Below are positions 4,308 through 64,000 of a stretch of DNA of 64,000 bases, in pieces. A program made the position numbers and the translations under genes. The notes below the pieces were generated by a model. That model saw only the letters and a list, made by a program, of their open reading frames with translations, was not told the DNA's origin and did not search any database. Numbering within the stretch: position 1 is the stretch's first letter; every line of letters begins with the position of its first letter. Origin of the DNA: Planctomycetaceae bacterium (lineage in GTDB: Bacteria; Planctomycetota; Planctomycetia; Pirellulales; UBA1268); contig WTHB01000147.1 of NCBI GenBank assembly GCA_011523305.1, positions 1 to 64,000 on the forward strand, read 5' to 3'.

Positions 4308-4357
4308 CGGGGTGTCTCTCTCCGCCTTGGAAGTGCCGCCGTGCGGCAAGCCGGCAT

Positions 4358-5236
4358 TTATGGTGTCGAATTCGCCGACACTTTCACCAGATCGGTTTTT
4401 TCGTCGACATCGTTCAGCCGCCCCCCCGGGGTGGATGGTGGCGGGAGCAGCAACAGGGCGACGCTGACGGCATTGAAGAGCGCATGGACGACAATACCCG
4501 GCAGAATCGTGCCCCGCCGCCGAGCCAGGTAGCCCGTCGCCAGCCCAAACCCAATCAGCGGAATCCAGCCCAGCCCGTGGCCAAGGTGCGCCAGCCCAAA
4601 GCAAACGGCCGAGACAACGATGGCCTGCTCCCCAAGCCGAGTTTCGAGCCAGCCCTGCAGCACCCGGCGGAAGAAAAACTCCTCAGCAATCGGCGCCGCC
4701 ACGACGGCTGTCAGCACCACAAGCCCAACCGCCGGCAGGCTGCGGTCGGCCCGCAAGAAATCGACCACCGGATGGCTGTAGGAGACAACAAAGCGATCGA
4801 GGAACGCCGCCACCGCCAGCAGCGGCGGCACGATAATCACCCAGGTGCCGACAGCCAACCGCAGGCCCGCCGCCGGCTGCGGATCACGAAACCCGAGGCT
4901 GCCGGCAGGGGCACCACGGAGCCGCAACACGACCATGCCGAGCAGGGTAAAGACAAGCATCGCCACGGCACTGGCCGCCAGCCCGGCATTGGTCACGACC
5001 GGCGTGGCCCCAGCCGTGGTTGGCGTCACCAGACTCACCAGTACCCCAACGCCTACCTGGCAGGCCATGAACAGGACAAACAGGGCCGCGACATCGAGCC
5101 CGTCCCAAGGGACAGGGTTCGCAGGTAGTGCCGGAACAAGCGGCTCACCCCGGCGGAGCCGACCGACCAGCCGGCTGATGCCCACCCCACTGGCCAGGCA
5201 GGCCACCACCGCAATCGGCCCCAGCAGTGCCGTCAT
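4358..5236 (-). CDS. CPBP family intramembrane glutamic endopeptidase
   Basis: 292 residues, about eight hydrophobic segments. All three motifs of the CPBP (CAAX protease/bacteriocin-processing) family are present: EE at 185-186 with R190 (IAEEFFFR), the HLGHG stretch with H217, and HALFN with H251 and N255. Expected role is proteolysis within the membrane; the substrate is unknown. The ATG at 5236 overlaps the pgsA stop as ATGA, so translation is coupled to pgsA. It sits upstream of the LpxL-like acyltransferase. Confidence 0.88.
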   Translation of the reverse strand: MTALLGPIAVVACLASGVGISRLVGRLRRGEPLVPALPANPVPWDGLDVAALFVLFMACQVGVGVLVSLVTPTTAGATPVVTNAGLAASAVAMLVFTLLGMVVLRLRGAPAGSLGFRDPQPAAGLRLAVGTWVIIVPPLLAVAAFLDRFVVSYSHPVVDFLRADRSLPAVGLVVLTAVVAAPIAEEFFFRRVLQGWLETRLGEQAIVVSAVCFGLAHLGHGLGWIPLIGFGLATGYLARRRGTILPGIVVHALFNAVSVALLLLPPPSTPGGRLNDVDEKTDLVKVSANSTP

Positions 5237-47846: not shown

Positions 47847-48578
47847 TCAGCCACCCCGATCCTCTGACAGGGAAGCAATTCTGGCAATCAGGGTCGCCGG
47901 AAAGAGGAGCCCACAGAGTCCCTCGAGAGAAGCAATTGTCAGCGGAACAGAACCCACCGGCACAAGATCGCTGTAGCCTGCAGTCGTCAGGGTGGCGAAG
48001 GAAAACCAGATGTAATCGACCCAGCGGATTTCCCGTTCCCCTTCAAACTCACTCGGCAGGCCGTACGTGCCAAATTCATGCAAACTGACAAAGGCGTGAA
48101 TTCCAGCGAAGATAACCCCCAGCATGATGAAACTCGCGGCCCCACAATAAATCCGCTGAGTCGCCGGTACATTTGACCGGAACGCCTGCCTGATACAAAT
48201 CGCCACGCAAATCACCTTGACGACCAGGAACATCAAGATCGGCGGAGGACGCACACCTGTCGTGACGGCAAACCCAAACAGAAACCAGCCGCCAGCAATT
48301 GCACTCGTCGCGACTAGAAGAAGGGTTAACCGTTGATACCCCAAAATCCAGACAATGGCGATGGCCAGTGCGAGGCTGAAAAACACATAGTCCGGAGGAG
48401 CTATCACCTGCCCACGGTCAAAAAAAGGCACGGCAGCGATCGACAAAATCTGACTGAGAAAAATCAGCATGCCGTGACGGGCAAGCCTGGCTTTGTGGCC
48501 GTAGACCCGCTCCCCGAAGGAGCCCGCGTCTTGAGATTCATTCTGCTGCGTCAGGGCACGAAAGAACCGAACAATCAT
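47847..48578 (-). CDS. Two-pore-helix potassium-type ion channel
   Basis: 243 residues, about six hydrophobic segments; the last two frame the pore helix WFSFATLTTAGYSDLVP. The selectivity filter reads TAGYSD rather than TxGYGD, so the last Gly is Ser; permeation may be altered or less K+-selective. It resembles short membrane proteins with an Ion_trans_2 pore and extra upstream helices. A strong ribosome-binding site (AGAGG) precedes the ATG at 48578. Followed by the DUF1622 gene 63 bp downstream. Confidence 0.82.
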   Translation of the reverse strand: MIVRFFRALTQQNESQDAGSFGERVYGHKARLARHGMLIFLSQILSIAAVPFFDRGQVIAPPDYVFFSLALAIAIVWILGYQRLTLLLVATSAIAGGWFLFGFAVTTGVRPPPILMFLVVKVICVAICIRQAFRSNVPATQRIYCGAASFIMLGVIFAGIHAFVSLHEFGTYGLPSEFEGEREIRWVDYIWFSFATLTTAGYSDLVPVGSVPLTIASLEGLCGLLFPATLIARIASLSEDRGG

Positions 48579-48734
48579 CTGACTTTACCTCTCTGACCAC
48601 CAGGTGACGACCCGCAGGCCACTTCGGTGCAAATCAATCTTCACCTGGTGTGAATCAAGTCAGTATTCTGCCACGGCTCCCGCTCCTCTGGGGAGGGGAA
48701 AACTCTCCGCACCTACCCTGCCTTAGAAAACCCA

Positions 48735-49643
48735 ATGGCCACCAGCCTCCTGCTCCTCCTTGACGACATCGCTAGCGTCCTTGACGACGTTTCGGTGATG
48801 ACGAAGGTCGCTGCCAAAAAGACTGCGGGTGTTCTCGGGGATGACCTGGCCCTCAATGCCAAGCAGGTCACCGGCCTGACCGCTGACCGAGAACTGCCGG
48901 TGGTCTGGCGGGTGGCCATGGGGTCGCTGTTAAACAAGGTCCTGCTTGTTCCAACAGCTCTCCTCCTCAGCTGGATTTTGCCAGCCGCGATCACCCCCCT
49001 GCTGATGGCTGGCGGGCTCTACCTCTGCTACGAGGGTGCGGAAAAGGTTATCCACACATTCCTGCACCGCTCCCCCGCCAACCAGCATCCCCCGGCACGC
49101 GCAATCGAACCAGACTCGGTCTTACACGATCCCAGCACCCTTGAACGGGCACGTGTTCATGGGGCAATTCGGACTGACTTCATCCTATCGGCTGAAATTA
49201 TCGTGATCACCCTTGGAATTGTGGCTGCGCAATCTTTTGCTGTGCAACTTGGTGTTCTTGTGATGATTTCTTTACTCATGACGATTGGCGTTTATGGACT
49301 CGTCGCCGGTATCGTGAAACTTGACGACCTCGGGATCTGGCTGCTTCGGCAATCGGCGGTCGCGAGTCAGACCATCGGCCGGGGCATCGTGACAGCAGCC
49401 CCTTGGCTGATGCGATTCCTCACTGTCGCGGGCACAACTGCCATGTTTCTCGTTGGGGGAAGCATTGTGCTACACGGAATTCCGGCCGCACATCACGCCG
49501 CAGAGAACCTAGTACACCATGGCCCGGCAGGCCTCGCGCCCCTTGCCCAGATGGTTCTCAATGGGCTCGTTGGACTGCTTACGGGCGGTCTACTGCTGGC
49601 CGTGACACAGGCTGGACGTGCCGCCTTCGGGCGACACGCCTAG
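48735..49643 (+). CDS. DUF808 (YedI family) membrane protein
   Basis: 302 residues with seven or so hydrophobic segments. MATSLLLLLDDIASVLDDVSVMTKVAAKKTAGVLGDD is diagnostic of DUF808, homologous to Escherichia coli YedI, whose function is not established. GLYLCYEGAEKVIHTFLH is the next conserved block. ATG at 48735. Divergent from the ion-channel gene, convergent with the low-complexity secreted gene. Confidence 0.9.
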   Translation: MATSLLLLLDDIASVLDDVSVMTKVAAKKTAGVLGDDLALNAKQVTGLTADRELPVVWRVAMGSLLNKVLLVPTALLLSWILPAAITPLLMAGGLYLCYEGAEKVIHTFLHRSPANQHPPARAIEPDSVLHDPSTLERARVHGAIRTDFILSAEIIVITLGIVAAQSFAVQLGVLVMISLLMTIGVYGLVAGIVKLDDLGIWLLRQSAVASQTIGRGIVTAAPWLMRFLTVAGTTAMFLVGGSIVLHGIPAAHHAAENLVHHGPAGLAPLAQMVLNGLVGLLTGGLLLAVTQAGRAAFGRHA

Positions 49644-49664
49644 CCCACGAACACGCCAGATCTA

Positions 49665-51095
49665 TCACGATCCAGCGTTCGGATTGTCGACCCGAACGAG
49701 CAGATACGTCTTGGTCCCCTGATCAGCGAAGTGAACCAACACCTGCGTCTCGTTCATGGTCAGATTCTGAATGCCGGTTTCGACAATTGGTGAAGTTCTG
49801 CCGCTAAAAGTCCAGGCGGCACGCTGTGAATCCTGATCAACCATCCCCTCAACGCCGGCCGTCTCGCCCGTCTTTTTGTTCTGGTATGTCCCCGCAATTA
49901 CGCCATCATTGCGGATCGCCAACTGCAGGAACATCGTCGGCGTAGCGGCTCCCTCACCTTCCTGAGCGACTGCAAAGACACCAAGCGGCAGCCAGTCATC
50001 ACTGGCTGCATCGGATGCTTCTGCATTGTCGTCCGGCACGCTCAACGCCAGGTCTTCCGCCTGCTGGGCATACTCCTCAACCGGAACAGCCTCTCCGTCA
50101 GCCATGACCGACGAACCGTCGTAGTAACTGCCACCGCCAGTGCCATAGTCGTAGTAGCGGCCTTCGCCCCAGTTCCACGGCATCAGCCGAGAGACCGTGC
50201 TAAACCCAACCCAGCTCCAGAAAATCGGGTTCTTATCAAAGTAGTAGTGGCCCGTTTGCAGGCCAGACCAAAAGTCTTGGTGCAGATCGTTGTTGTACGC
50301 GGAATTGAGCTGCGAACGAATGCTGTCAGCCTGGGCGCCCAGGGTCTGCTGACGCGTCGTCCGGCGGTCCGATCGACCCGCCGCCAGATCGGTCCGAACA
50401 TCGCCCCGGTTCTCCACGCGGACAGCCTGCCGATCCCCCCGAGAGGAAACCCGCTGCTGTCGGTTCTCTGAGGCAAACTGCCGATTGTCCCCTCGGCTTC
50501 CTCGGGCGTCGGTTCGCACGTCGGTTCGATTCGAAATTGCATCGGACCGGGCTCCTGCCACATTTTTAGGGGCGGTCGATGCTGCTGCCGCAGCACCTCC
50601 ACTCTTGTTGAGAAAATCTGACACCGCCGTTCCTGATGCGGTCTTTCCAGTTTCAATTCTGCCAGCCGCTTTTCCTGTGGCAGCGCCACCGCCAGAGGCT
50701 TTCAAAAAGTCCTGCACCTGCCCTTGCGTCGGCCGTGCGGCTGCTCGGGTACCGCCGCTCCCAGCAACCTTTCCCGCCCCGGCATTCACCTTCCCAGCAG
50801 CCGCACCTGAAAGATTCTGACCAGCCTTCCCCGAGAGATTCTTTCCGGCATTTCCGCCAGGACTTGGTCGTGAGGCAGCCGAGGGCTTCGCCGCAGGCGC
50901 GGGCCGACTCGGAGCCGGACGACTTGGCGCACTCGGTCGGGCACCACCGCCGGATGGCCGCCCCCCACCACCACTAGGCCGACCACCACCGCCCGGGCGG
51001 GCAAAACTTGTGGCTGGCAGGCAGAGGGCTCCAGCAGCCGCCAGGACACCAACGACACACCAACGCACCAGCATCTGCTTCGGGCGAGTATTCAT
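49665..51095 (-). CDS. Low-complexity secreted protein (planctomycete mu-protocadherin-like)
   Basis: 476 residues. Signal peptide (WCVVGVLAAAGALCLPATSFA), then a Gly/Pro/Ser/Arg-rich stretch with GGGGRPSGGG repeats, an Ala/Gly/Lys-rich part with two DFL repeats (VQDFLKASGG and VSDFLNKSGG), a basic RNG-type central region, and a C-terminal beta-rich domain (LQLAIRNDGVIAGTYQNKKTG, WTFSGRTSPIV). Similar proteins in planctomycetes are labelled mu-protocadherin-related; function unknown, extracellular or wall associated. It starts 21 bp after the HAD gene ends and is presumably co-transcribed with the sulfatase and HAD genes. Confidence 0.8.
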   Translation of the reverse strand: MNTRPKQMLVRWCVVGVLAAAGALCLPATSFARPGGGGRPSGGGGRPSGGGARPSAPSRPAPSRPAPAAKPSAASRPSPGGNAGKNLSGKAGQNLSGAAAGKVNAGAGKVAGSGGTRAAARPTQGQVQDFLKASGGGAATGKAAGRIETGKTASGTAVSDFLNKSGGAAAAASTAPKNVAGARSDAISNRTDVRTDARGSRGDNRQFASENRQQRVSSRGDRQAVRVENRGDVRTDLAAGRSDRRTTRQQTLGAQADSIRSQLNSAYNNDLHQDFWSGLQTGHYYFDKNPIFWSWVGFSTVSRLMPWNWGEGRYYDYGTGGGSYYDGSSVMADGEAVPVEEYAQQAEDLALSVPDDNAEASDAASDDWLPLGVFAVAQEGEGAATPTMFLQLAIRNDGVIAGTYQNKKTGETAGVEGMVDQDSQRAAWTFSGRTSPIVETGIQNLTMNETQVLVHFADQGTKTYLLVRVDNPNAGS

Positions 51096-51116
51096 GGGTT
51101 TCTCTCTTTTTAAAAT

Positions 51117-52163
51117 TCAGGGTTGTGGGCCAAAAAATGTTTTCCAATCGTCCTGCATATCAACAACCGTCCAGCCATGCTCAGAAGCTGCCTCAAGGGC
51201 GGAGACTAACCTCCCACTCACCAGCGGCTGTTTATCATAGTCATATTCTCGGGTCTCATCCGTATGGCGAACCAAGACGCCGAGTGATCGGTAGTGATTA
51301 CCAATTGTCGTGTATTCCATCATCGACTGATCACCGTCGGAGTTTCCGAAACAGGCAATCGGCCGCCGACCAAGTTGCTGATAGATCCGCACCGACTTTC
51401 CAACCTTATCGTTGACGAAGAATCCGCTTGGCTTCTTGAAGAACTCCGGCCTGCCGTCTCTGATCTCAAAAGCGACGTCTGCACTTGACCCAAGCACCCA
51501 CTCCGGCTCAACACCATACACCCGCTCAGCAAACTGCCTCATGAAGTCGACGCCCCCGCCTGACACGATGGCAACCTTAAATTGCTTCTCTCGCAGCAGC
51601 GCAAGCACCTCCTGCATGGGACGGTAGGTCAATTGTTCGTATGGCACACCGAACCGCGGGTGCCGGGCCTTGGCAAGCCAGGCTTCCACGCGGCGAGCGA
51701 ACTCGTCGCTGGTCATCCCCGCATGGGTAAGCGTAAGAACTTTCACCAAACCGGCGTGTTGCTCGCCTGCAACGAGCCGTTTCAGGTCTCCCTCAATTGC
51801 TGCCTGCACCAGCGGTTCGGCGGCCAAATCGGGATCTTCAGCGGCAAGTCGCCGAACTTCGTCCAACGTAAACGCCAACTCAAACGGCAGTGGACATTCC
51901 GGCCAGAGGGTACCGTCGTTGTCAAAAACAGCGAGCCGCTCTTGGACAGGCACGAAGGTTTCGCTTCCCTCCTGGGTCACAGCAGACACAAACGAGAGGA
52001 TCGCCTCTTTCGAGGCTCCGTCATGCCATGACGCAAGTGGCTCCCCTGCCTGGAGCAGCGGCATACCGGCCGCAAGAACACACACCAGCCCACAGGCAAG
52101 ACGGCAACTGCGCTGCGAACGAACAGCTCTGCAAAATAACCGCACCCAGCCTCTCCCCAACAT
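51117..52163 (-). CDS. Secreted HAD-superfamily phosphatase
   Basis: 348 residues from the ATG at 52163. Signal segment SCRLACGLVCVLAAGMPLLQA. HAD motifs are FDNDGTLW (I, with nucleophile and acid Asp), VSGGG (II) and the later KVGKSVRIYQQLGRRPIACFGNSDGDQSMM (III/IV, with Lys and the Asp pair). It is probably a phosphatase acting outside the cytoplasm. The upstream open frame extends into the sulfatase gene and is not used. It begins 1 bp after the sulfatase stop, so translation is tightly coupled. Confidence 0.87.
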   Translation of the reverse strand: MLGRGWVRLFCRAVRSQRSCRLACGLVCVLAAGMPLLQAGEPLASWHDGASKEAILSFVSAVTQEGSETFVPVQERLAVFDNDGTLWPECPLPFELAFTLDEVRRLAAEDPDLAAEPLVQAAIEGDLKRLVAGEQHAGLVKVLTLTHAGMTSDEFARRVEAWLAKARHPRFGVPYEQLTYRPMQEVLALLREKQFKVAIVSGGGVDFMRQFAERVYGVEPEWVLGSSADVAFEIRDGRPEFFKKPSGFFVNDKVGKSVRIYQQLGRRPIACFGNSDGDQSMMEYTTIGNHYRSLGVLVRHTDETREYDYDKQPLVSGRLVSALEAASEHGWTVVDMQDDWKTFFGPQP

Positions 52164-52164
52164 C

Positions 52165-54663
52165 CTACTGTCTCCCAAACATCGCCCGCACTGCGTCCTC
52201 TGGCCGGACCAGCCGGCCCTTGCCCGCGTCACCCTCGGCGATTGAGAGTTGCACACCCTTGATTTCGCCATTGAAGTGATTGCCAACCGGTCCATAGTCA
52301 GGCGACACCGGAGCACCTGAGTCTTCTCCAACGTCCAGGCCATCGTCAGCTGAATAGATGTTTGAGAGCGTCGCCTTCAACTCCCCCTGGCCGACAGGGT
52401 TCGCGTCGACGCTGAGCGTCACCGTTCCACCCTTGCCAAGACCATCACCCGCATATGCAAAATCCATCTGTACTTGATGTTCTCCGGGTGCAAGTTTTTC
52501 AGCCGAGGTCACAAAGGTGTTGCCAAACCCGCCGTAGTTGTAGCAATACTTCAGGTTGCCCTCATGCATGTAGAGCGACCAGCCACCAATGTTGGCACCC
52601 TGGCAGATGATGACGCCCTCTCCCCCCTGCTCAGGCACAACAATATTTGCCGTCACCGAGTGCGACTTGTTCTTGATACTCAGCACACAGTTTTCAAGCA
52701 GCCGCCCCATCCCCGGAAACAGCAATTGCGTTGTCCCCTGCACCAAGACTGGACGGCCTGCCGTGTCAGGATTCAGCTTTTCAAACACTCGGTCATCAAG
52801 CGGCAACACCTTGTAGCGGGCCGCCTCGATGAGGAACAACTGCTGAAGTTCGTGAAGCTTCTCCGGCATTTCCACAGCCAGGTTCTCCGCCTGCGTCCAG
52901 TCGGTGTCTGCGTACAACTCCCAAACATCATCCTCAAACGCCGGGAGTTTTTGGGTTGGCGGGGCCCACGGCGTGCGATGCTTCGTGACGGCAGTCCAAC
53001 CATTGTGGTAAATCCCGCGATTACAGATGATCTCAAAATACTGGGTCGCATGACGCTCCTTGGCCCGTGGGTCATCAAACGAATACCGCATGCTGACGCC
53101 TTCGATCGGGTCCTGCTGAACCCCGTTGACGAACCGGGGTTCCGGCAGATTAGCAGCATCGAGCACGGTCGGCGCGACGTCAATGACGTGACAAAACTGC
53201 GACCGGACCTCACCCTTGGCCGAAATGCCCTTGGGCCAATGCACCACGGTTCCGTTACGGGTACCGCCCCAATGCGATGCCACCTGCTTTGTCCATTGAT
53301 AGGGCGTGTTCATGGCACAGGCCCAGCCCACCGCATAGTGATTGTACGAGTCCGGGCCTCCTAAGTCGTCCATCCGCTCCGTCAGATACGCTTGCGTTTC
53401 AAGGTCCTGAATGCCATTGAAATAACTCATCTCGTTGAAACAGCCATTCAGTCCGCCCTCGGCTGACGCGCCATTGTCACCAACGATGTAGTAGATGAGC
53501 GTGTTGTCCAGAATCTGGAGTTTGTCCAGGGTATCGACAATCCGGCCGACGTGATGGTCGGCATGTTCAACGAACCCGGCATAGACCTCCATCTCCCGCG
53601 CCAGCACCGGCTTGAATTGCTCGGGAATGTCCTGCCAGCGGGGCACCTCGTCATTCGCCGCGGTCAGCACGCAGTCTTTGGGCACAACACCCAGTTGCTT
53701 TTGCCTAGCAAAAATCTCCTCCCGAATTGCATCATACCCTTCGTCAAACTTTCCAGCGTACTTGTCAGCCCATTCCTTTGGTGCGTGGTGTGGAGCATGG
53801 GCTGCCCCCGGAGCGAAGTACATGAAAAAGGGTTTGTCGGGTGCCAGTGACTTCTGCTGGCCTATCCACTTGATCGCCTTGGAGGCCATGTCTTCCATGA
53901 AGTGGTAGCCCTGCTCCGGTGTCTTCTTGTTTTCGACCGGCGTGGTGCCCTCGTAGAGCGTGGGGTACCACTGGTTGGCCTCGCCACCAATGAATCCATA
54001 GAAATACTCAAAGCCACCGCCCCCTGTTGGCCAGGCGTCAAAAGGCCCCACGGGGCTGGCCTGCCAGACGGGAACCTCATGGCATTTCCCAAACTGGGAT
54101 GTGCAGTAGCCGTTGAGCTTAAGTGTTAGAGCAAGCGGTGCCATCGAGTTTGGCAACACCGAACTGTAACCAGGAGCACCCGTGGCGAGTTCTGTAATCG
54201 CCGCCATGCCCGCTGAGTGATGATTGCGGCCAGTCAGCAACGCCTGTCGTGTCGGTGAGCACAACGCCGTCGTGTGGAATCGATTGTATTTCAACCCTCC
54301 CTGCGCCAGTCGCTCAAGCGTCGGCGTCTGACATGGCCCACCAAAGGCACTTGTTGCTCCAAAGCCAACGTCGTCAAGGAGCACAATCAGCACATTGGGA
54401 GCATCCGCTGGTGGGCGCACCTGCGGAATTGGTGGAAAGGTCGCGTCGGGGCTTTTCGCATCATAGACAACCAGATCCGGCCGCACGGTATTGGGTAGTG
54501 GCAGCACGGAGCGATCCGGACCATCTGTCTCCGCAGCAGTCACACCAGCAACTACAACCGCGAGCAGGAGCCCCCCAATGGCACTGACCGCCACTGTCCG
54601 CCGTCGCCGCACAACGCTTGCCTGCGCACCCGCTCCATGCCTTCCTGAACTCAGTGAAATCAT
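52165..54663 (-). CDS. Secreted arylsulfatase (type I, S1_4-like)
   Basis: 832 residues from the ATG at 54663. The hydrophobic segment AVSAIGGLLLAVVVAGVTAAET is the signal anchor. The active site is LLDDVGFG with metal-binding Asp, and CSPTR at 135-139 whose Cys is oxidised to formylglycine. Further sulfatase blocks are MYFAPGAAHAPHHAP, YIVGDNGASAEGG and TKQVASHWGGTRNG. The size and C-terminal beta domain (MDFAYAGDGLGKGGTVTLSVD) fit the long arylsulfatases of the S1_4 type. It removes sulfate esters from glycans. No sulfatase-maturing enzyme lies in the window. First gene of the sulfatase-HAD-protocadherin-like unit. Confidence 0.92.
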   Translation of the reverse strand: MISLSSGRHGAGAQASVVRRRRTVAVSAIGGLLLAVVVAGVTAAETDGPDRSVLPLPNTVRPDLVVYDAKSPDATFPPIPQVRPPADAPNVLIVLLDDVGFGATSAFGGPCQTPTLERLAQGGLKYNRFHTTALCSPTRQALLTGRNHHSAGMAAITELATGAPGYSSVLPNSMAPLALTLKLNGYCTSQFGKCHEVPVWQASPVGPFDAWPTGGGGFEYFYGFIGGEANQWYPTLYEGTTPVENKKTPEQGYHFMEDMASKAIKWIGQQKSLAPDKPFFMYFAPGAAHAPHHAPKEWADKYAGKFDEGYDAIREEIFARQKQLGVVPKDCVLTAANDEVPRWQDIPEQFKPVLAREMEVYAGFVEHADHHVGRIVDTLDKLQILDNTLIYYIVGDNGASAEGGLNGCFNEMSYFNGIQDLETQAYLTERMDDLGGPDSYNHYAVGWACAMNTPYQWTKQVASHWGGTRNGTVVHWPKGISAKGEVRSQFCHVIDVAPTVLDAANLPEPRFVNGVQQDPIEGVSMRYSFDDPRAKERHATQYFEIICNRGIYHNGWTAVTKHRTPWAPPTQKLPAFEDDVWELYADTDWTQAENLAVEMPEKLHELQQLFLIEAARYKVLPLDDRVFEKLNPDTAGRPVLVQGTTQLLFPGMGRLLENCVLSIKNKSHSVTANIVVPEQGGEGVIICQGANIGGWSLYMHEGNLKYCYNYGGFGNTFVTSAEKLAPGEHQVQMDFAYAGDGLGKGGTVTLSVDANPVGQGELKATLSNIYSADDGLDVGEDSGAPVSPDYGPVGNHFNGEIKGVQLSIAEGDAGKGRLVRPEDAVRAMFGRQ

Positions 54664-54899
54664 TTTTTTCTCCGCGGTCTCTGCTACCAATTGCCACAAC
54701 CAACACCACCGGAACCGGGCCCGACGCACACATCCGGCCAGCATCACTTGACTTAGGTTTAACACGGCAAGAACGGGCCGCCATGCAAATTGCGCAGGCT
54801 ACCCATGAAAAAATCTCGCGAGGGGCGTGCTTAACCTTGCGACCAGCACGCTGCCCCCCAAGGCGGGGCACCACGACCGACCCTGGCAGACATCTCTTT

Positions 54900-56330
54900 T
54901 CACCGTGGCTGGGAAGCTGCCCGGAGGCGGCTGAGCCGAATCACGGGCACCACAAGATCCGCACTGCCCTTCGGCAGGTGGATGCGCAACTTTCCATTGG
55001 CACGCTCACTCATTAGCGACTCCGTTGTGCCGAGCAGAACCGCATCACCCCACTCTTTCGGTGCATCGTCAATAGCGAGAACGCCGTCCTCTGGCCGCTG
55101 AATCACACAGAGATAGCATGCATCGCCGTCCCGGCGTTCGGTCACCCGCCCCCACTCAGGGCTCGGAAGCTGACTCACCGTTGCCCCGTGGATCGCCTCG
55201 CCATTGACCGCCATCCATGCACCGATCGCCTGGAGCCGCTCAACGCTTTCAGCAGGTACTGTCCCATCCCCGGTCGGCCCAATGTTCAGCAGATAGTTCC
55301 CTCCCTTACTGACGATCTCCACCAGTTTGTGAAGAAGCGTCTCGGTCGACTTCCAAGCATCGTCGTGCTCGCTATAGCCCCAGGTCGTGTTCATCGTCAT
55401 GCAGGTTTCCCAGTCGATGCCAGGCATGCCTTCGTCGGGAACATGCTGCTCGGGTGTAATGAAGTCACCGTAGGTCGGGTCGAGTTGCATCGTAAATCCA
55501 TCGGTTCCCATCCCCTTCCAGCCAGCCTCAGCCGAGCGGAATAATCGGTTATTCATGATCACCTGAGGCTGATCCTGCCGGACTTTTTCCATCAATGCGA
55601 ACGCCCGCCAGGCCTCATCACCCTGAAAATCAGTCGCGCTGTAGTCCCACCACAGCACATCGACCGGGCCATAGCCACTCATCAACTCCTTCACCTGATC
55701 ATGCAGGAAGGCAACGTATGTGGCGTGATCACGCTCACCGTTGGGATAGGGCTTCTCCCGCAGCGGGTGCGGAAGAATTTTTGACTTCGCATAGGCATAC
55801 TGGTCATGGTGCCAGTCAATGACTGAGTGATAGAAGCCAACCCGCAGGCCCTCGGCTCGGCAAGCCTCAACAATTTCTTTGACCAGGTCTCTGTCAAGAA
55901 TCGAGCCTGCATCAAAGTCACTGACTGCTGAGTCATGGAGTGCAAACCCGTCGTGGTGCTTGGTCGTGAAGACCAGATACTCGCAGCCAGCCTGCTTCGC
56001 CAGTTTCGCCCAGGCCGTCGCGAAGCCGGCTTTTGGCTTGAACAGCGGAATCGCTCGCTCGGCATAGGTGTCTGTGTCAGCCTTCACACGATTCTGAATC
56101 CACTCCATCCCCCCGCGCTTGGCCACCGGCTTTCCGTCCCAGGTCCCCGCGAGCCCAGAATAAAGCCCCCAGTGCACAAACATGCCGAAACGGGCCTCTC
56201 GCCACCACTGCATCCTTTCTTCCCGTGCCTCCGCACCAGGAGGATCTGCCGCTTGCACAGCTGACCGGGAGAAACCAGGGAAGAGCAAAAGAAAACAGAG
56301 AAAGAACCACGAGCGGTAGCAGATCAACAT
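54900..56330 (-). CDS. Secreted alpha-L-fucosidase (GH29)
   Basis: 476 residues. Signal peptide LICYRSWFFLCFLLLFPGFS. GH29 blocks are MQWWREARFGMFVHWGLYSG, TTKHHDGFALHDS, DLVKEIVEACRAEGLRVGFYHS and VDVLWWDYSATDF, where Asp229 is the expected nucleophile. It releases L-fucose from glycan ends, here probably sulfated fucose polymers (inference from the neighbouring sulfatases). GGGGAG precedes the ATG at 56330 by about seven bases. It has its own promoter region, with a perfect palindrome over a potential -35 element. Confidence 0.93.
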   Translation of the reverse strand: MLICYRSWFFLCFLLLFPGFSRSAVQAADPPGAEAREERMQWWREARFGMFVHWGLYSGLAGTWDGKPVAKRGGMEWIQNRVKADTDTYAERAIPLFKPKAGFATAWAKLAKQAGCEYLVFTTKHHDGFALHDSAVSDFDAGSILDRDLVKEIVEACRAEGLRVGFYHSVIDWHHDQYAYAKSKILPHPLREKPYPNGERDHATYVAFLHDQVKELMSGYGPVDVLWWDYSATDFQGDEAWRAFALMEKVRQDQPQVIMNNRLFRSAEAGWKGMGTDGFTMQLDPTYGDFITPEQHVPDEGMPGIDWETCMTMNTTWGYSEHDDAWKSTETLLHKLVEIVSKGGNYLLNIGPTGDGTVPAESVERLQAIGAWMAVNGEAIHGATVSQLPSPEWGRVTERRDGDACYLCVIQRPEDGVLAIDDAPKEWGDAVLLGTTESLMSERANGKLRIHLPKGSADLVVPVIRLSRLRAASQPR

Positions 56331-56430
56331 CGATATCTCCCCAGGCTAATTGAACCACCTCGAACCGATGACACATGACACGAACAAAATCGACTCCGTG
56401 TTTGTGGAAGGAGCATGCGCGAGTCGATGT

Positions 56431-56472
56431 ATCATATACGATGGTCTCACCCCAGTGTCCAAAAATTGGACA
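56431..56472 (-). promoter_or_regulatory. Candidate GH29 promoter with palindromic operator
   Basis: TGTCCAA-AAA-TTGGACA at 56456-56472 is a perfect 7-bp inverted repeat. Read toward the fucosidase gene, TTGGAC at 56462-56457 could be a -35 element and TATGAT (56436-56431, spacer 20) or TATATG (56438-56433, spacer 18) a -10 element. The start codon lies about 100 bp downstream. The palindrome would cover the -35, the place for a repressor or activator. Confidence 0.4.
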
Positions 56473-56556
56473 TTGACAACCTCGCACTGGTTCGACGCTC
56501 GACAGCATCTGAGAGCATGGCCCTGGTACATCCCTCCCCGTTCTAGGCTTGTCAGC

Positions 56557-57972
56557 TCAACTCCCAACCCCAGTGCGATACTTCGAAAACACTGGGCCTG
56601 TCGGTTTTGCTGGCAGACTCGCCTGCCAGGCTTGCAGCATCGTCTTCAATGCCGTCACCTGCTCAGGTAGGCGTGAAGCGAGGTTGGTCTTTTCCAAAGG
56701 ATCCTCCTCAAGGTTATACAGCTCCACAAAACTCAGATCCTTATTGGCCACCAGTTTCCAATGATCATCAACCACCGCCCAGGCAGCCCAGTGGAAGGGC
56801 TTGTTCTTGGGAGCTGGCCACGGTGAATCTGCTTTCCAGAACAGTGGTCGCTCTCGCCGTGGCGCGGGTGTCCCCTGCAGGGCACGCACCTGGCTCACAC
56901 CATCAGCGGTATAGCCTTCGGGCAACGCCGCCCCGGCCACCTCACAAAAGGTTGGCAGCAGATCAACTGCCGAGATCAGCGTCGCGTCATCAACACCTCC
57001 GGCAGCCACCTTGCCAGGCCAGCGAACGATAAACGGCACCCCGATGCCCCCTTCAAACAGGGCGGCCTTATAGCCCTTGCGACCGCCGGTAATACCTTTT
57101 GACGCGGCAAGCCCAAAGCCAGCTCCCGTTGCTGTGTCATACGACAGCTCCAGTTTTGCTGGTCCTGCCGCCCGGGCCGGACCATTGTCCGAACTGAAGA
57201 CAACCAGCGTGTTTTCCGTCAGCCCGAGCCGGTCAAGGGTATCGAGCACCTGGCCGATTCGTTCATCGGCGTGGGCCAGTGTCGCCGCATAGATCTCATC
57301 TTCCTCGCTGAGTCCCGAATCGCGGAACCACCAGCGGTACTTGGGAATCACATGAAACGGTGTGTGCGGCTCATGGATCCAGAGATTGACAAAAAAGGGC
57401 TTCCCCGCAGTGACAGCCTGCTCGATAAACGCGATCGTCCGCCCCGCATCGTCATGCACAGGCATCTGCTCACCGGCGCAGTTGAAGGCTCCGCAGTCGT
57501 CATAGCCATAGTCACCCGGCAGCGGCGAATCGGGAATCATGTCGTTGGCCAGATGCCACTTGCCGTAGTGGGCCGTTGCGTAGCCCGCCTGCTGCAGCAT
57601 CCTCGGCAGGGTGGGAGCCCGTAGATCGAGCCAGTCGGGCATATTCCGCTTGGCATTCTGATCAACCCAGGCAAAGTGGCCGTCAATGTTCCAGCGGGCT
57701 GGGAACTGCCCCGTCATCACCGCGGTACGACTGGGCGAACAGACGCCGCTGGCGACCGTGAACCGGTGGAAGTCCGTCCCCTCGCGAGCGAGCCGATCGA
57801 TGTTCGGCGTTCGCACATAGGGATGACCGTGGCAACTGAGGTCTCCCCAGCCCCAATCGTCCGCGAAGATGAACAGAATGTTCGGCTGCTCGGCAGCCAC
57901 GACAGGCCTTGCTCCCACAAGACAGCACAGCACCAAGATTCCCCATACGAACGCCTGCACTCCGCATCGCAT
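56557..57972 (-). CDS. Secreted sulfatase (type I)
   Basis: 471 residues from the ATG at 57972, with GGAGGG eight bases upstream; an upstream in-frame TTG is less likely. Signal peptide VQAFVWGILVLCCLVGARPVVAA. FADDWGWGDLSCHGH carries metal-binding Asp residues and CSPSR at 78-82 the formylglycine Cys. HEPHTPFH, LDTLDRLGLTENTLVVFSSDNG and WRGPGKV-like segments complete the family. It is shorter than the 832-residue sulfatase and belongs to a different subfamily. It follows the esterase by 77 bp. Substrate inferred to be a sulfated glycan. Confidence 0.92.
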   Translation of the reverse strand: MRCGVQAFVWGILVLCCLVGARPVVAAEQPNILFIFADDWGWGDLSCHGHPYVRTPNIDRLAREGTDFHRFTVASGVCSPSRTAVMTGQFPARWNIDGHFAWVDQNAKRNMPDWLDLRAPTLPRMLQQAGYATAHYGKWHLANDMIPDSPLPGDYGYDDCGAFNCAGEQMPVHDDAGRTIAFIEQAVTAGKPFFVNLWIHEPHTPFHVIPKYRWWFRDSGLSEEDEIYAATLAHADERIGQVLDTLDRLGLTENTLVVFSSDNGPARAAGPAKLELSYDTATGAGFGLAASKGITGGRKGYKAALFEGGIGVPFIVRWPGKVAAGGVDDATLISAVDLLPTFCEVAGAALPEGYTADGVSQVRALQGTPAPRRERPLFWKADSPWPAPKNKPFHWAAWAVVDDHWKLVANKDLSFVELYNLEEDPLEKTNLASRLPEQVTALKTMLQAWQASLPAKPTGPVFSKYRTGVGS

Positions 57973-58049
57973 CACAGCACCCTCCAAACCATTCTGTTCC
58001 GCCCGCTTCTATCGCGAGCCCAAAGTGGCCACCCCGGCCACCCTTGTGA

Positions 58050-59885
58050 TCAGTCAACAAGCCTGATTGCCTGCACGTACGTCTGGCCTTCTTCCGACCC
58101 CAGGGGCAGCGTTGCTTTGCCCTGCACATCGACGAGGGTCACCTGGAACGTCGCGATCTTGGCCCATTGAAGTGTCTTTCCCTCCGGCCCCTGGAAATCT
58201 TCCCGCCGAATAATTACCTCCTGCGGGCCGTTTCCCGACACCTGCTTCGTCAGGGCAAAGCCTTCCTGACTGTCTGCCGGAGCAAGGAACTTGCTGTCGG
58301 TTCGCAGCCGCAACACCAGCGACTTTCCGTGAGAGTCAATCGTGAAGACCAGCTTGCGGTTATCTCCCCGATCGAGGCTTGGGTCCTGAAATTTATAGGT
58401 CGTCAGGGTACGGCCATCACGGGTGCTCCAGTCGGCTGCTCCATTCGCAAAGTCTTCGAAGAGGTCACTGTCGATCACAAGTTTCGTGAGCGAACTGCGC
58501 CTGACCGTTTCCGGCAGCCAGACCTGCTCAACCGAGTTCAGCACAAACGTTGCTGTCTCGCCCCGCTCAAGCTGCCGAGACTCATCGAGGCGATACCGGC
58601 ACAGTGCGAAGACATAAAGCGGCAGGTCAGCATGAACCGGCAACTCAACAGACCAGGTGCCACCTGCTCGGATTGCATCCGCCCGCTTCCAGAACCGCGT
58701 CCGGGCGTTGGAGTCATAGCTGTAGTAGACCTCGGTCGCCTGCAACCGCTCAGACTGGGCGGGCGTCACTGCAAATGTTGCGTGACGTCCATCAACCGTG
58801 AACGCCGACGGCGGCGTGACTGGAATCTGCTGATTGATCCCCTTCAGGTACTGGTCGAACCAGAGATTGAGCAGCACCCACTGCTCAGGCCCGGGGCCGT
58901 GGTTGTGGTGAATGTTGGTGGTCACCCGCCAGTTACTGTGCGGCAGTAGCGCCATCGAGCGATAAATTCGATCGAACGCAGAATGAAAATCATTGGATGA
59001 ACTGATGAAACAGACCGGGCACTTCACCAGCGGCCAATAGCCAACCGGATCAACCATCGCCTTATACAGCTCAAGTTCCTCGGGCTGAAAATGCACACGG
59101 AGGCTGCTCCGTTCAACCCCAGGAAAGTCGACGTATTTAAAACCTGTGCCACCAACGAACGGCACAACCGCCTTCAGCCGTGAATCGATCGCCGTCAGGG
59201 CCGTGATCATGCCTCCCATCGAAAACCCCGAAAAGCCGATCCGCTCGGCATCCACCTCAGGCTGTTGCTCCAAAAACGTAATGGCCCGTCGCGCGGCGAC
59301 CGTGAGCAAAAACCAGTTGCTGTTGCGGGGGCTGACAACAGGATCGAGCGTATAGGCATCCGGCCGCAGGCCCCGCTTCCAGCCCTTCCGCAAGGCCTTG
59401 GCGTAAAACCGAGGTCCCTGGGTTGGATCGACCTTGCCCCAGTCGGTATTGATCTCAATGCCTTCCTCAAGCGGCCGCCCCAGCCAATTGATATCAACGG
59501 TCGCGTAACCCTGCTTCGCAAAATAGATGCCACGACTCCGCTCGGCCCGCTGCCCTCCCCCATGACTCCAGACAAAGGCGGGCCGTTTCCCACCGGCATC
59601 CGGGAAGGAATAGTATGCCGCGATCCGCGACTCAGCCCCTTTGAAGGTGCCAACGGTAAAGGTGACATAGCGTGTCGTCACGCCGTCAGTCTGCCACTCT
59701 TTGACCACCTTCACATCAAGTGGCTCGCGCCGGGCGTCATAGCCTTCCCATAACTCGGCCACGGACTTCGGCACGTCGCCCGGACCGTAGGGTACAAACG
59801 TGTCAGCCGCAGAGCCGACTGCCTGACTTCCCCACAGGCAGAGTGCAGCAAAAACCGCAACTCCTGCGTCACGATACTTCTTCAT
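58050..59885 (-). CDS. Secreted alpha/beta hydrolase, acetyl-esterase type, two-domain
   Basis: 611 residues from the ATG at 59885, with GAAGAG upstream. Signal peptide AGVAVFAALCLWGSQAVGSA. The hydrolase core (about 40-400) has oxyanion region HGGGQRAERS and nucleophile elbow SGFSMGG with Ser222; a His in NIHHNHGPG is a catalytic candidate. It resembles acetyl xylan esterase/polysaccharide deacetylase-type hydrolases. A C-terminal beta-sandwich of about 180 residues (AADWSTRDGRTLTTYKF to VTLVDVQGKATLPLGSEEGQ) may bind carbohydrate. It lies between the cytochrome gene and the sulfatase in one minus-strand unit. Confidence 0.85.
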   Translation of the reverse strand: MKKYRDAGVAVFAALCLWGSQAVGSAADTFVPYGPGDVPKSVAELWEGYDARREPLDVKVVKEWQTDGVTTRYVTFTVGTFKGAESRIAAYYSFPDAGGKRPAFVWSHGGGQRAERSRGIYFAKQGYATVDINWLGRPLEEGIEINTDWGKVDPTQGPRFYAKALRKGWKRGLRPDAYTLDPVVSPRNSNWFLLTVAARRAITFLEQQPEVDAERIGFSGFSMGGMITALTAIDSRLKAVVPFVGGTGFKYVDFPGVERSSLRVHFQPEELELYKAMVDPVGYWPLVKCPVCFISSSNDFHSAFDRIYRSMALLPHSNWRVTTNIHHNHGPGPEQWVLLNLWFDQYLKGINQQIPVTPPSAFTVDGRHATFAVTPAQSERLQATEVYYSYDSNARTRFWKRADAIRAGGTWSVELPVHADLPLYVFALCRYRLDESRQLERGETATFVLNSVEQVWLPETVRRSSLTKLVIDSDLFEDFANGAADWSTRDGRTLTTYKFQDPSLDRGDNRKLVFTIDSHGKSLVLRLRTDSKFLAPADSQEGFALTKQVSGNGPQEVIIRREDFQGPEGKTLQWAKIATFQVTLVDVQGKATLPLGSEEGQTYVQAIRLVD

Positions 59886-59950
59886 GGGCGTTCTCTTCTC
59901 CACACCAAAACCTACCAACGTTTCCGACCAGCGGCATTATGACAGGCAAC

Positions 59951-60919
59951 TTAACTTCCACTAGGCTTCAGGCCCTTCAAGAAGGCGACTAGGGCCTCAA
60001 TCTGCTGCTCATTCAGTGTCTGCGTGATATCCACCATGCGATTGGCGTTTTCGTAGCCTTTGACGATGGCTGCCTGCGGCTTGAGGATCGACTCCCGAAC
60101 ATATGCCTCATCTGCCACCATGCTCTCAAGTTGACCGTTTCGGCTGACAATCCGTGGGGCGGTCCAGAGATCAGCAAAACTTGGCCCAATCCGCTTTCCG
60201 CCATCCAGCGTGTGGCACGACATGCAGTGCACGGCGTAAAGCAGGCGACCATTGGTGGTCGGCTGCTGCCGCACAAATGATTCCTTCGTCGGCTTCAATT
60301 GCAGTCGGATCTGCGCCCAGGATTCTGTGGCAGGAATCCTGACAAACCCTGCCGCCGGTTGCTCGAGCCGGTCACTCAGTTCACACTGCTCAACAGCAGT
60401 CATCTCCATGCAATACAACCGAGGCTGTGTTCCCGGTGTAGGAAAGGCCAACTCAATCGTCACCTGGCCTGGGCCAAATGACAGGACCCGTTGCTCAATC
60501 GGAACGCCATCCACTGCAAAAAGAAATGCAGGGATTCCCGTTGCCGGCTCGATGCGATACCCCGCGAACTCAACCGCTTCAGGGATCCTGTCCTCGGCCC
60601 CAATCCGAATTGGCACCTCGGCAGTTCCCAGGTTTCGCCGCACTCCAAGCGGTACCAGCGGCTGGCCGCCGCGGCCAGTCGCCTCCGGCCGGAAGTCGAG
60701 AAAGTCCCCAAACCACACGCTGACCAGACGGCAGCGGACCGGATCGAACAGATAGTTGAAGCCACCCGGCATGCCCACGGCAATGCTTCGCGGCAGCCCC
60801 TTGGTTACACAACGCTGCACAACCGCGCGGTCGGTCACCTCAATGTCGAACTGCTCGCCCGCAAACGCTGTGGTACTACAACTGATCAGGAGCAGAACGG
60901 CCAACACCTGCCTGTTCAT
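59951..60919 (-). CDS. Secreted c-type cytochrome with N-terminal FDPxxCxLVSxW domain
   Basis: 322 residues. Signal peptide RQVLAVLLLISCSTTAFA. An N-terminal beta-rich region (about 22-215) contains MPGGFNYLFDPVRCRLVSVW. Heme motif CMSCH at 232-236 and a likely axial Met at 295 (NANRMVDIT) form a class I cytochrome c at the C-terminus. The N-terminal region repeats a segment of the neighbouring 874-residue protein (ALPNGICYSFDPNACHLVSIW), suggesting a shared domain. Start ATG overlaps the stop of that neighbour as ATGA. Presumed partner in electron transfer from the propeller protein. Confidence 0.85.
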   Translation of the reverse strand: MNRQVLAVLLLISCSTTAFAGEQFDIEVTDRAVVQRCVTKGLPRSIAVGMPGGFNYLFDPVRCRLVSVWFGDFLDFRPEATGRGGQPLVPLGVRRNLGTAEVPIRIGAEDRIPEAVEFAGYRIEPATGIPAFLFAVDGVPIEQRVLSFGPGQVTIELAFPTPGTQPRLYCMEMTAVEQCELSDRLEQPAAGFVRIPATESWAQIRLQLKPTKESFVRQQPTTNGRLLYAVHCMSCHTLDGGKRIGPSFADLWTAPRIVSRNGQLESMVADEAYVRESILKPQAAIVKGYENANRMVDITQTLNEQQIEALVAFLKGLKPSGS

Positions 60920-63540
60920 GGCAGCACCTCGTTGAGCGTATAGAAGGCCACGTTGTTTTCCAGGACTGCCCCCGACTCCGCTTCCACGTAGCCAAGGTCA
61001 AGCTCATAGACCTTGCCGGCCTTCACTGGAAGACGAAGGCTGAGCACCGTGTGATCCTTGGAGAGGTCTGCCTGCTCAACCGGTCGCCCACGCACCTCCT
61101 GGCGGTCTGAGCCATACTCTGCCCAGTACAGATAGTGGAACTCTCGCACGGTCACCGCATCACCACCCACGGCATCAGCCACGGGCTGGGTGAAGTAGAT
61201 GTCGAACCCGTGGGGTGTCAACGCAACTCGCTGCATCTCAAACGGCGTGCTTGTGTTGTCGTAGCTAACCGTCTCGATGATGGGTTCTCCAGTCGTCCAC
61301 CCCCGACCGACTGAACCGACCCACAGCCGGCCATCCGGACCAAAACAGGTGGAATACGACGCACTCGCCAAAGGCCGAATGAACGGGAACACCGCCCCCT
61401 GATAGACCCCGTTTATCCTTTCCAGCGCAACCCGAATGATCGCCCGATGCGAGATGTCAGCGAGAAAAGCCTGCCCGCCAAATGGGCCAAAGCCGCTGGC
61501 GGGAGCAAACGCCGGATTTCCCGGTGAGTTGGCCAGGTCGCCATGAATAAGCCAGACCGCCGGCGGCTTTCGCTCTGCCCGGTAAGACACCTCATCCAGT
61601 GGCGGCACGGTCTCGACGGTCGCTTCGACCGAGCGATAATCCAGTTGCCGGGGCGTCAGCCCGTACTCAGGCCGATCCCAGAGCGTGGCTGGATGGCCGA
61701 GGAAATCGCCCTCCTCAACATGAGCCAGATACGACGAGGCCACCCAGTCGCCTTGGTTATCGGTCACAAAGAGTTCGTCGTCAGCATTTATGCCGATTCC
61801 AGCAGGAGAGCGCAACCCACTGGCAAAGGGCGACAGATTTCCCTGTGGGTCAACCTTCATCACCCAGCCACGGTAGCCAAGCGGTGACGACATCTGGCCG
61901 GTCTTCGATTCCTTCGCCTCGTGGTGACCCGAGGCCGCCAGCCCTGTTGAGAAGAAGAGGTTCCCAGCCGTGTTCCTGACCGGTCCATAGGCGAACTCGT
62001 GGTAATTACCCGTGAATCGAAAGCTGTTGGCAACGGACTGATACAAATCTGCCCGGCCATCACCGTCGGTGTCCTCGAGCAACGTCAGTTCCGGCTTCTG
62101 CATGGTGTAGACGTCACGCCCGTTTGCCGCCACCCGGACCCCCAGCGTCTCATGTAACCCTTCGGCGAATCGTGTCCACACTCCGTTCAACAGTCGCCAA
62201 ATATGGCCGGTCCGGGTTGAGACGAACAACGATCCATCGTCAGCGAAACTGAAGCCGGTCGGCTCAAAGAGGAAAGGTCGGTCTGGCGCAGGTCCTTCAA
62301 CCTGATCCACCCTATAGCCTAAAGGCAGAACCTGCCCCCGCTTGCGGCGGACCAGGTCGATCTCAAACAGCGTCTGCCCCGGCTTGAGAAACTCCAACTG
62401 GTTTCGCTGGGCCTGCTGGCCGTTGGTGCCGACGCTGCGGTAGTTGGTCTGCTGCAGCCAATAGGTCAGCACCTCAGCCGACCCTTTCGGATGGGTGATC
62501 TCGAAGCGAATCCGCTGCCGCAGCGGCGACCGCACTTCAAGCGTCTCGGCGACAACCCACGCTCGCTGCTGCTCTTTGTCTGACATTCGATACCGAACGA
62601 CTACTTCATCGCCAACGACTTCGTACCCCAGCCACATATAGTCAAACTCAACGCGTCCAACATTGTGGCCAACAGCCATCCGCCAAGGCTTTTCCCGAAC
62701 AAAGAAGGACTCCGTGGCAACTTCATTGAGCGTCACCGCACCAGCCGCATCGGCCCATCCCAGCGGCCCCTCCCAGATCGACACCAGGTGACAGGCGTTC
62801 GGGTCAAAGCTGTAGCAAATGCCGTTCGGCAGGGCGATGGCCAGCAGCGGGTGCGATACGCCGGGCTGCGGCACCTCCTTGACGACAATCTTCCCTGTGG
62901 CCGTGATCGGTGTGCCTCTCTTCCCAGCTTTCTGTTCGCTGAGAAACGCGATCAGATCATAGAACTCCTGCTCGCTTGCCAACTGATCGGTGAGCCCTTC
63001 AGGCATAGCCGATGGGGCCGGTTGCATCGCCTCAATATCGACCCGGGGAATCTCCGTTGTCTTGCCAGTTTCTGGGCTGATGAGCACGACGGCCTCAGGA
63101 GATTCCGATACCACGACACCTTTGTGCACCATGCCGGCGTCGGTCAACACGACAAACGCAGCGTAGCCCTTGGCAATGCTGCGATTCGGATACAGCACCG
63201 CTTCAACAAGCTGCTTCGGGGTCAGACGGTCACCGATGGTTGTCTGCTCAGGGCCAATTGACCGCTGCCCTTCGGCCCGGGCCTGTGGGGAGACAACATG
63301 GCACTTCACACAGCCAAGCGTGTCGCGGCGGTAAATGGCCTCACCGCGGCTGGCATCTCCCGACTGGATGGCGGTACCCGCAAGTTCTGCCGTCGCCCTT
63401 GCCCGTAACGCTGTTGTCAACGACGCGGCTGCGTCAGCAGCCCAGACCGCAGGGGAAGAAAGAGCCATGCCGCTCATGGCCCCGAGGAGAGCCAGAACCG
63501 CTGGGTGGAACCGCCGCAACAGACGCAGGGTGTACTTCAT
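60916..63540 (-). CDS. Secreted cytochrome c - shared domain - PVC-type beta-propeller dehydrogenase-like protein
   Basis: 874 residues. Signal peptide AVLALLGAMSGMALSSPAVWA. An N-terminal heme domain has CVKCH at 77-81. A middle region holds ALPNGICYSFDPNACHLVSIW and the following beta strands, shared with the next gene. The last part (about 395-870) is a beta-propeller with FADDGSLFVSTRTG, LLEDTDGDGRADLY, GFSPFA-type blades and GIGINADDELFVTDNQGDW, typical of the PVC membrane-bound dehydrogenase group of quinoprotein glucose-dehydrogenase relatives. A role in oxidising a sugar or polyol with electrons passed to heme is inferred. ATG start at 63540; heads the polysaccharide unit. Confidence 0.83.
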   Translation of the reverse strand: MKYTLRLLRRFHPAVLALLGAMSGMALSSPAVWAADAAASLTTALRARATAELAGTAIQSGDASRGEAIYRRDTLGCVKCHVVSPQARAEGQRSIGPEQTTIGDRLTPKQLVEAVLYPNRSIAKGYAAFVVLTDAGMVHKGVVVSESPEAVVLISPETGKTTEIPRVDIEAMQPAPSAMPEGLTDQLASEQEFYDLIAFLSEQKAGKRGTPITATGKIVVKEVPQPGVSHPLLAIALPNGICYSFDPNACHLVSIWEGPLGWADAAGAVTLNEVATESFFVREKPWRMAVGHNVGRVEFDYMWLGYEVVGDEVVVRYRMSDKEQQRAWVVAETLEVRSPLRQRIRFEITHPKGSAEVLTYWLQQTNYRSVGTNGQQAQRNQLEFLKPGQTLFEIDLVRRKRGQVLPLGYRVDQVEGPAPDRPFLFEPTGFSFADDGSLFVSTRTGHIWRLLNGVWTRFAEGLHETLGVRVAANGRDVYTMQKPELTLLEDTDGDGRADLYQSVANSFRFTGNYHEFAYGPVRNTAGNLFFSTGLAASGHHEAKESKTGQMSSPLGYRGWVMKVDPQGNLSPFASGLRSPAGIGINADDELFVTDNQGDWVASSYLAHVEEGDFLGHPATLWDRPEYGLTPRQLDYRSVEATVETVPPLDEVSYRAERKPPAVWLIHGDLANSPGNPAFAPASGFGPFGGQAFLADISHRAIIRVALERINGVYQGAVFPFIRPLASASYSTCFGPDGRLWVGSVGRGWTTGEPIIETVSYDNTSTPFEMQRVALTPHGFDIYFTQPVADAVGGDAVTVREFHYLYWAEYGSDRQEVRGRPVEQADLSKDHTVLSLRLPVKAGKVYELDLGYVEAESGAVLENNVAFYTLNEVLP

Positions 63541-64000
63541 AGATAGAGCGACCAGTTTATCAGTTCATACCCCATTCATGTCACCCACCGGCAGCCACTT
63601 ACAGGCTGCAATTCCCCGCATTGACTCAGGTGCCATCACCGCTTGCACGCGGAGACCAGTTGAGTGTGGGCTCTTTTGCTTGCCTCCCACCATAGGCTCG
63701 GTTGGCCTCCCGCAACCGGCTGTTCCCGGTTGCGTAGGCTGGTGGGTCATCCGGCTCGGCGAGCAGTGTTTCGGCTGCCTCCATTGCAGCAGACAGTGGC
63801 ACACGGTCAACGCTTGCTCCCCCCGGCTCCGCCGCTGCTCGGCAGCTTGTCGTTCATCGAAAAGCTCTGTCTTATTATTCCTGCCCAGTCGGCCGCAACG
63901 CATAATCAACACCAGTCAGACTAAGCTCGACTGACTGCTTCCATGCATTCAGACATTCGGCCATCGCACGCACTCGTTCTGAGTGCTGCGACGCCACATT
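63541..64000. other. Gene-poor end of window
   Basis: About 460 bp without a convincing gene. It contains a perfect 9-bp inverted repeat CGCAACCGG/CCGGTTGCG at 63711-63734 with a 6-base loop, and at the edge an ATG at 63943 whose frame stays open to the window end. The promoter of the upstream minus-strand unit should also lie here. Confidence 0.5.
63943..64000 (+). CDS. Possible start of a gene truncated by the window edge
   Basis: ATG at 63943 begins MHSDIRPSHALVLSAATPH and remains open to base 64000. No ribosome-binding site precedes it and the piece is too short to judge. Listed only so that the edge is not overlooked. Confidence 0.2.
   Translation, partial: MHSDIRPSHALVLSAATPH

Follow-up and report, generated by a model that had tools for sequence, protein, structure and literature searches.

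A shared domain in opposite positions in two adjacent planctomycete heme proteins: a probable and rare rearranged form of a widespread two-gene system

In the genomes of planctomycetes and related bacteria, many cytochrome and propeller proteins that await characterisation are encoded next to sulfatases and glycoside hydrolases (PMC5615132). We analysed a stretch of 64,000 nucleotides from a Planctomycetaceae bacterium (contig WTHB01000147.1, positions 1 to 64,000; referred to as the window), in which two neighbouring genes on the (-) strand encode heme proteins of this sort, here called P0001 (60916..63540, 874 residues) and P0002 (59951..60919, 322 residues). All other genes of the window mentioned below are on the same strand. 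A preliminary description of the locus had proposed that the two proteins share a module in opposite domain order, and this raises the question of what the shared part is, how it came to stand in both proteins and what the pair may do. Both open reading frames are present, and their overlap of four bases (60916..60919) was confirmed when the coordinates were checked. P0001 starts with a signal peptide, which is followed by a TIGR02603-type heme domain (62935..63360, residues 61-202; CVKCH 77-81 at 63298-63312), a DUF6797-like domain that we call D_big (62305..62919, residues 208-412) and an sGDH-like propeller (60919..62304, residues 413-874). In P0002, the signal peptide precedes the second DUF6797-like domain, D_small (60275..60856, residues 22-215), and a cytochrome c domain of the caa3/CoxII type stands last (59963..60274, residues 216-319; CMSCH 232-236 at 60212-60226). 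Each protein has exactly one CxxCH site. Thus, the order of heme and shared domain is indeed opposite in the two proteins, and the propeller expected behind the shared domain of P0001 is recovered as well.

The shared segment had been recognised by a motif of the form LPxGxxYxFDPxxCxLVSxW. This motif reads LPNGICYSFDPNACHLVSIW in P0001 (residues 237-256 at 62773-62832) and MPGGFNYLFDPVRCRLVSVW in P0002 (residues 50-69 at 60713-60772), and the consensus holds for P0001 but not for the first residue of P0002, which is methionine (MP instead of LP). The two versions agree at 11 of 20 residues, which is barely above chance, as the best of 60 shuffles reached 10 of 20. The cysteine of the motif is not conserved in the orthologs of P0001 but is conserved in those of P0002 (C63). 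BLASTP aligned P0001 with P0002 at an E-value of 1e-6 over 47 residues. When profiles of D_big and D_small, which had been built from separate sets of relatives, were compared by hhalign, 150 of about 200 columns were aligned (Prob 96.9, E 1.4e-10), and eight column-shuffled versions of one of the profiles gave Prob values of 0.1-1.0. When the shared-domain profiles were compared with those of the propeller and of the heme domains, no convincing match appeared; two low E-values in these comparisons go back to 10-13 residues held in common at the cut ends. We consider the likeness of the two segments real because the surrounding domain matches and not because of the motif identity.

Structure prediction led to the same result. 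For these experiments, domain-only alignments were used as AlphaFold2 input, and a full-length alignment of P0002, in which the C-terminal domain halves of its relatives had fallen on the heme region, was discarded. D_small alone was modelled with a mean predicted local distance difference test score (pLDDT) of 93.7 and a predicted template modelling score (pTM) of 0.89. The corresponding values for D_big alone, with an alignment of only five sequences, were 83.2 and 0.81. The models were compared by strand order and Foldseek neighbours. Both are all-beta, their strand order agrees, and they end alike with a short helical turn, a long strand, two short strands and another long strand. Bl_Man38A, YgjK, kojibiose phosphorylase and the periplasmic domain of YidC were PDB neighbours common to both copies, although the Foldseek scores were modest for both and none reached an E-value of 0.001. 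We take these neighbours to form one group, the beta-supersandwich of the galactose-mutarotase kind. Taken together, P0001 and P0002 carry one complete homologous domain of about 200 residues that extends beyond the short motif. It was on similarity beyond the motif that the preliminary description had staked its proposal beforehand, and the profile match and the same predicted all-beta fold provide it.

In the families of Pfam and NCBIfam alone, the domain is missed in P0001 and stays below the cut-off in P0002. For DUF6797 (PF20601, cut-off 24.9 bits), P0002 scored 12.8 bits and P0001 gave no match. The D_small profile matched the DUF6797 domains of fused planctomycete proteins, which are introduced below, with an E-value of 1.8e-11, and the match of the D_big profile was weak (E 7.6e-5, Prob 62). 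Some relatives with five hemes exceed the Pfam cut-off (L067, for instance, with 25.9 bits). On these profile comparisons we classify the shared domain as DUF6797-like, with both copies under Pfam's own cut-off. A PDB sequence search with the D_small profile returned no relatives. Scanning the bacterium's own genome with a degenerate DNA version of the motif, which ignored codon variety and spacing, gave no match, and no paper on DUF6797, DUF7133 or 'PVC-type heme-binding' turned up in a literature search. In P0002, two cysteines outside the heme site, C37 (60809-60811) and C63 (60731-60733), are invariant in five aligned orthologs, and a disulfide between them is possible.

Is the pair then the product of a duplication? 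The preliminary description had suggested that a module was duplicated and tuned for electron transfer between P0001 and P0002, which would mean that one unit of heme and shared domain was copied in place, that the order of one copy was inverted and that the copies were adapted to electron exchange. The homology of the two domains and the adjacency of the genes fit this scenario, but the hemes do not. The TIGR02603 heme domain (cut-off 68.15 bits) scored 69.6 bits in P0001 and 22.9 bits, below the cut-off, in P0002. Outside its orthologs, the P0001 heme has its nearest kin in fused heme-heme-DUF6797-propeller proteins, namely in their first hemes (matches of E 4e-34 and weaker), and one of these proteins is encoded in the bacterium's own genome. 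The P0002 heme most resembles the C-terminal cytochrome c of CoxII/caa3 oxidases (lowest E 3e-23). Among its nearest kin, most are cytochrome c domains preceded by a CuA motif, and the combination of COX2 and cytochrome c was confirmed in all three such proteins scanned. PDB entry 1w2l matches this heme as well (E 1e-14), and five-heme proteins gave only E-values above 1. Thus, by their sequence kinship the two hemes are assigned to different families. The C-terminal position of the P0002 heme is explained by the caa3-type cytochrome c oxidase, the subunit II of which carries its cytochrome c domain there. P0002 lacks the COX2 transmembrane and CuA domains of this subunit and has the DUF6797-like domain in their place. 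Since the hemes belong to different families, the opposite domain order looks like the result of two separate domain recruitments, and this is how we would best read it.

Phylogenetic analysis of the shared domain is less decisive. In a tree of 52 rows, D_small joins three copper-type domains (support 99/98), and D_big sits elsewhere on a long branch, weakly placed beside two pentaheme domains. The approximately unbiased (AU) test rejected neither the joining of D_big to D_small (p 0.19) nor the joining of D_big to the fused DUF6797 group (p 0.18). Tree and AU test of the domain sequences may therefore be read either way, and they neither show nor exclude an in-place duplication of the shared domain as such. 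Of the duplicated module, the homology of the shared domain stands, and the copying and inversion of a whole heme-domain unit is not supported; in view of the different nearest kin of the hemes and of the best tree, and although the AU test does not reject a joint clade of the two copies, we regard such an event as very unlikely. The suggested tuning for electron exchange between the two proteins is putative and has indirect support from their co-occurrence, from the overlap of four bases and from relatives in which blue copper takes the place of the hemes.

The pair was compared with related loci. In planctomycetes, DUF6797-like domains form the C-terminal part of proteins with five CxxCH sites and a PA14 domain, and a gene for a heme-less propeller directly follows. 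The propeller gene follows a gene for carrier and domain at 24 loci, including the copper-type loci described below. Many of these loci were retrieved via the propeller, so that adjacency is partly a matter of selection, but the propeller gene was also next in nine of ten testable loci fetched by the domain alone (L164 is without it; L166 is cut by a contig end). This two-gene system uses the same propeller family as the window and contains the nearest kin of D_small; its two genes lie side by side, in many cases with an overlap of four bases. However, it is arranged as domain gene followed by propeller gene, whereas the window has the propeller gene first. In the window, moreover, the propeller protein has a heme and a shared domain of its own, and the P0002 heme, which is of CoxII type, stands behind its domain. 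A second group of known proteins is fused and combines in one chain a TIGR02603 heme, a cytochrome c, DUF6797, in some cases LamG, and a propeller. Such proteins occur in planctomycetes, and one is encoded in the bacterium's own genome (L091, on contig C168). P0001 follows their order of heme, DUF6797-type domain and propeller. In contrast to P0001, the fused proteins have two hemes per chain of about 1000-1300 residues, and their DUF6797 passes the Pfam cut-off. P0001 has a single heme, its domain does not reach the cut-off, its propeller is closer to the stand-alone ones, and a second protein stands next to it. Thus, the window pair is a rare rearranged variant of the widespread system of carrier-domain gene and propeller gene, assembled from a known planctomycete toolkit.

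Four genomes (L156-L159) have, as the carrier on the domain and in place of hemes, a copper domain of the plastocyanin/azurin type with the ligand motif C-x-x-P-G-H-x-x-x-M, and the propeller gene is still next. The copper-DUF6797-like proteins, in which the hemes are replaced, are encoded at L156:5208-7055(-), L157:4428-6029(+), L158:5110-6243(-) and L159:4830-5933(-). As a side observation, L157 has a separate gene (3665-4381(+)) with a clear DUF6797 (Pfam E 2e-24) just upstream of its copper-DUF6797-like and propeller genes. The exchange of heme for blue copper argues for electron transfer by the partners of the domain, and it is the best evidence for this function. It also hints at what DUF6797 may be for. 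Because copper can replace heme as the carrier on this domain without separating domain and propeller, the redox role is directly testable, and the small two-protein, two-heme version of the window would be a convenient test system.

These data bear on a different reading of the shared domain, according to which it binds carbohydrate or presents substrate, holding a glycan near the propeller or the heme, and is not a redox adaptor. The Foldseek neighbours of both copies point in this direction, as most are supersandwich domains from mutarotases, phosphorylases and glycoside hydrolases, and the fold resembles that of accessory domains in the latter, as do the PA14 domains of the relatives, which are often carbohydrate-binding, and the sulfatase and fucosidase genes near the pair. 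On the other hand, the periplasmic domain of YidC has the same fold and is not an enzyme domain; the fold alone gives no function. Moreover, the domain stays beside or fused to propeller and electron carrier even where the carrier turns from heme to copper. We regard a carbohydrate-binding role as possible but unlikely. If the domain is instead an adaptor, it might be a general one that docks interchangeable carriers (one heme, five hemes, a caa3-type cytochrome c or blue copper) onto one kind of propeller dehydrogenase, and the two copies of the window would then pair so that electrons from sugar are relayed over two hemes into the respiratory chain. In this general form, the proposal is a tentative and rather doubtful one.

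The propeller of P0001 scored 37.3 bits against DUF7133 (PF23500, cut-off 27 bits) and 49.3 bits, which is below the cut-off of 122.2 bits, against TIGR02604, the PVC-type heme-binding CxxCH protein. It is closest to the stand-alone heme-less propellers of the two-gene system. Over 32 propellers, the polar residues H514, E515, R557, R577, D594, Q596, R703 and R746 are near-invariant. R577 aligns with R228 of sGDH via a fused relative, and the near-invariant H514 is a candidate catalytic histidine; the fused relatives themselves match the GSDH family and sGDH weakly. In sGDH and the fungal AA12 enzymes, the equivalents of His144 and Arg228 are thought to be used (PMC6881810). In CcPDH, a fungal heme-propeller enzyme, electrons from L-fucose pass from the pyrroloquinoline quinone (PQQ) domain to the heme domain (PMC4332668). 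The combination of propeller and heme domain makes sGDH and the AA12 enzymes (CcPDH, TrAA12) analogues of P0001, which would retain the Arg228 motif and a candidate catalytic histidine. However, their sequence similarity to P0001 is only distant, the cytochrome of CcPDH is of the b-type AA8 family, and PQQ use by P0001 is putative.

Because of the carrier swap, the near-invariant residues, the fucose-glycan cluster around the pair and the analogy to CcPDH, we propose that the propeller of P0001 oxidises a sugar and that two hemes, one in each protein, serve as its electron carriers. We give this proposal, in which activity, substrate, cofactor, electron path and docking are all inferred, about an even chance of being correct. 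The two proteins would be co-translated periplasmic partners. The propeller would act as a dehydrogenase for an aldose or pyranose, of the broad sGDH/DUF7133/TIGR02604 kind, and its substrate would be released by the sulfatases, the fucosidase and the esterase encoded nearby. From the propeller, electrons would first reach the heme at the N-terminus of P0001; the caa3-type heme of P0002 would take them up next and deliver them to the respiratory chain. The DUF6797-like beta-supersandwich may serve as an adaptor by which each heme carrier is kept in place at the propeller, and the shared domains possibly also hold P0001 and P0002 together. As to origin, a TIGR02603 heme would have been recruited before the domain of P0001 and, separately, a CoxII-type cytochrome c behind that of P0002.

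Several observations weigh against this proposal. The residue after R577 is serine, where sGDH has Asn229. The propeller profile matched only generic NHL propellers in the PDB, designed ones and those of kinase sensors. A search for PqqC in the bacterium's own genome and 79 genomes of the class found no match anywhere and is thus uncalibrated; because of these negative searches, PQQ use is uncertain. Finally, the congeners G002 and G003 have kept the sulfatase and esterase genes, but P0001 is missing there and P0002 is present only as a broken remnant. Alternatively, the propeller might be a platform for structure or sensing, with the pair acting as an electron relay or redox sensor without catalysis. 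The designed and kinase-sensor propellers and the empty PqqC search favour this possibility, but near-invariant polar residues over 32 propellers are what one expects of an active site, the fused relatives do match the GSDH family and sGDH, if weakly, and throughout the phylum the propeller goes together with a heme or copper carrier. We consider a non-catalytic platform improbable.

The sugar-oxidising proposal draws on the neighbourhood of the pair. Beside it, the window encodes an AXE1-like esterase (58050..59918; Pfam AXE1, 28.8 bits), a sulfatase (56557..57987; Pfam Sulfatase, 164 bits), a glycoside hydrolase family 29 (GH29) alpha-L-fucosidase (54900..56330; Pfam Alpha_L_fucos, 277 bits) and a second sulfatase (52165..54765; Pfam Sulfatase, 212 bits). 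This cluster suggests fucose-containing sulfated glycans as its target. The planctomycete-specific cytochromes with PSCyt1-3 and PSD domains, which belong to the PVC group (Planctomycetes, Verrucomicrobia and Chlamydiae), adjoin sulfatases too, and for the PSCyt cytochromes near sulfatases a role in carbohydrate use was proposed (PMC5615132). A Pfam scan found neither PSCyt nor PSD domains in P0001 and P0002.

The intact pair occurs in six genomes, those of the window, G007, G004, G245, L113 (an uncultured Rubripirellula) and L114/G625; in G004 and L114, P0001 runs off the end of the contig. Among 397 genomes sampled from the order, four carry it, and there are few beyond. D_big was not found without P0002 in any of the genomes surveyed for the pair. 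The propeller gene always precedes the domain gene, the reverse of the two-gene system, and an overlap of four bases is possible in five of the six intact pairs, the window included. Sulfatase genes adjoin the pair in G007, G004, L113 and L114, and in the last three of these they include orthologs (69-78% identical) of the sulfatase at 56557..57987. In G007, an esterase homolog follows the pair; in G245, a GH29 gene follows and an esterase homolog lies nearby. The P0002 remnants of the congeners are located at L063:6844-7133 (G002) and L064:3434-3601 (G003), where a gene combining a 3-keto-disaccharide hydrolase with PhoD now stands. A decayed pair was found in G631 (L155:8769-9581), comprising a propeller end and a P0002 that has lost an internal part and whose reading frame is broken; it adjoins an intact sulfatase gene. 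Since the pair is lost where sulfatase genes stay, it is not needed for the cluster; its distribution is patchy and it is dispensable.

Positions 48000-64000 of the window have a G+C content of 0.58-0.60, and the remainder of the window has about 0.62. Together with the patchy distribution, the lower G+C content would be consistent with arrival of the cluster by gene transfer. At the far end of the same gene run, 49665-51095 encodes a 476-residue protein, without a Pfam match, that is rich in glycine, alanine and proline.

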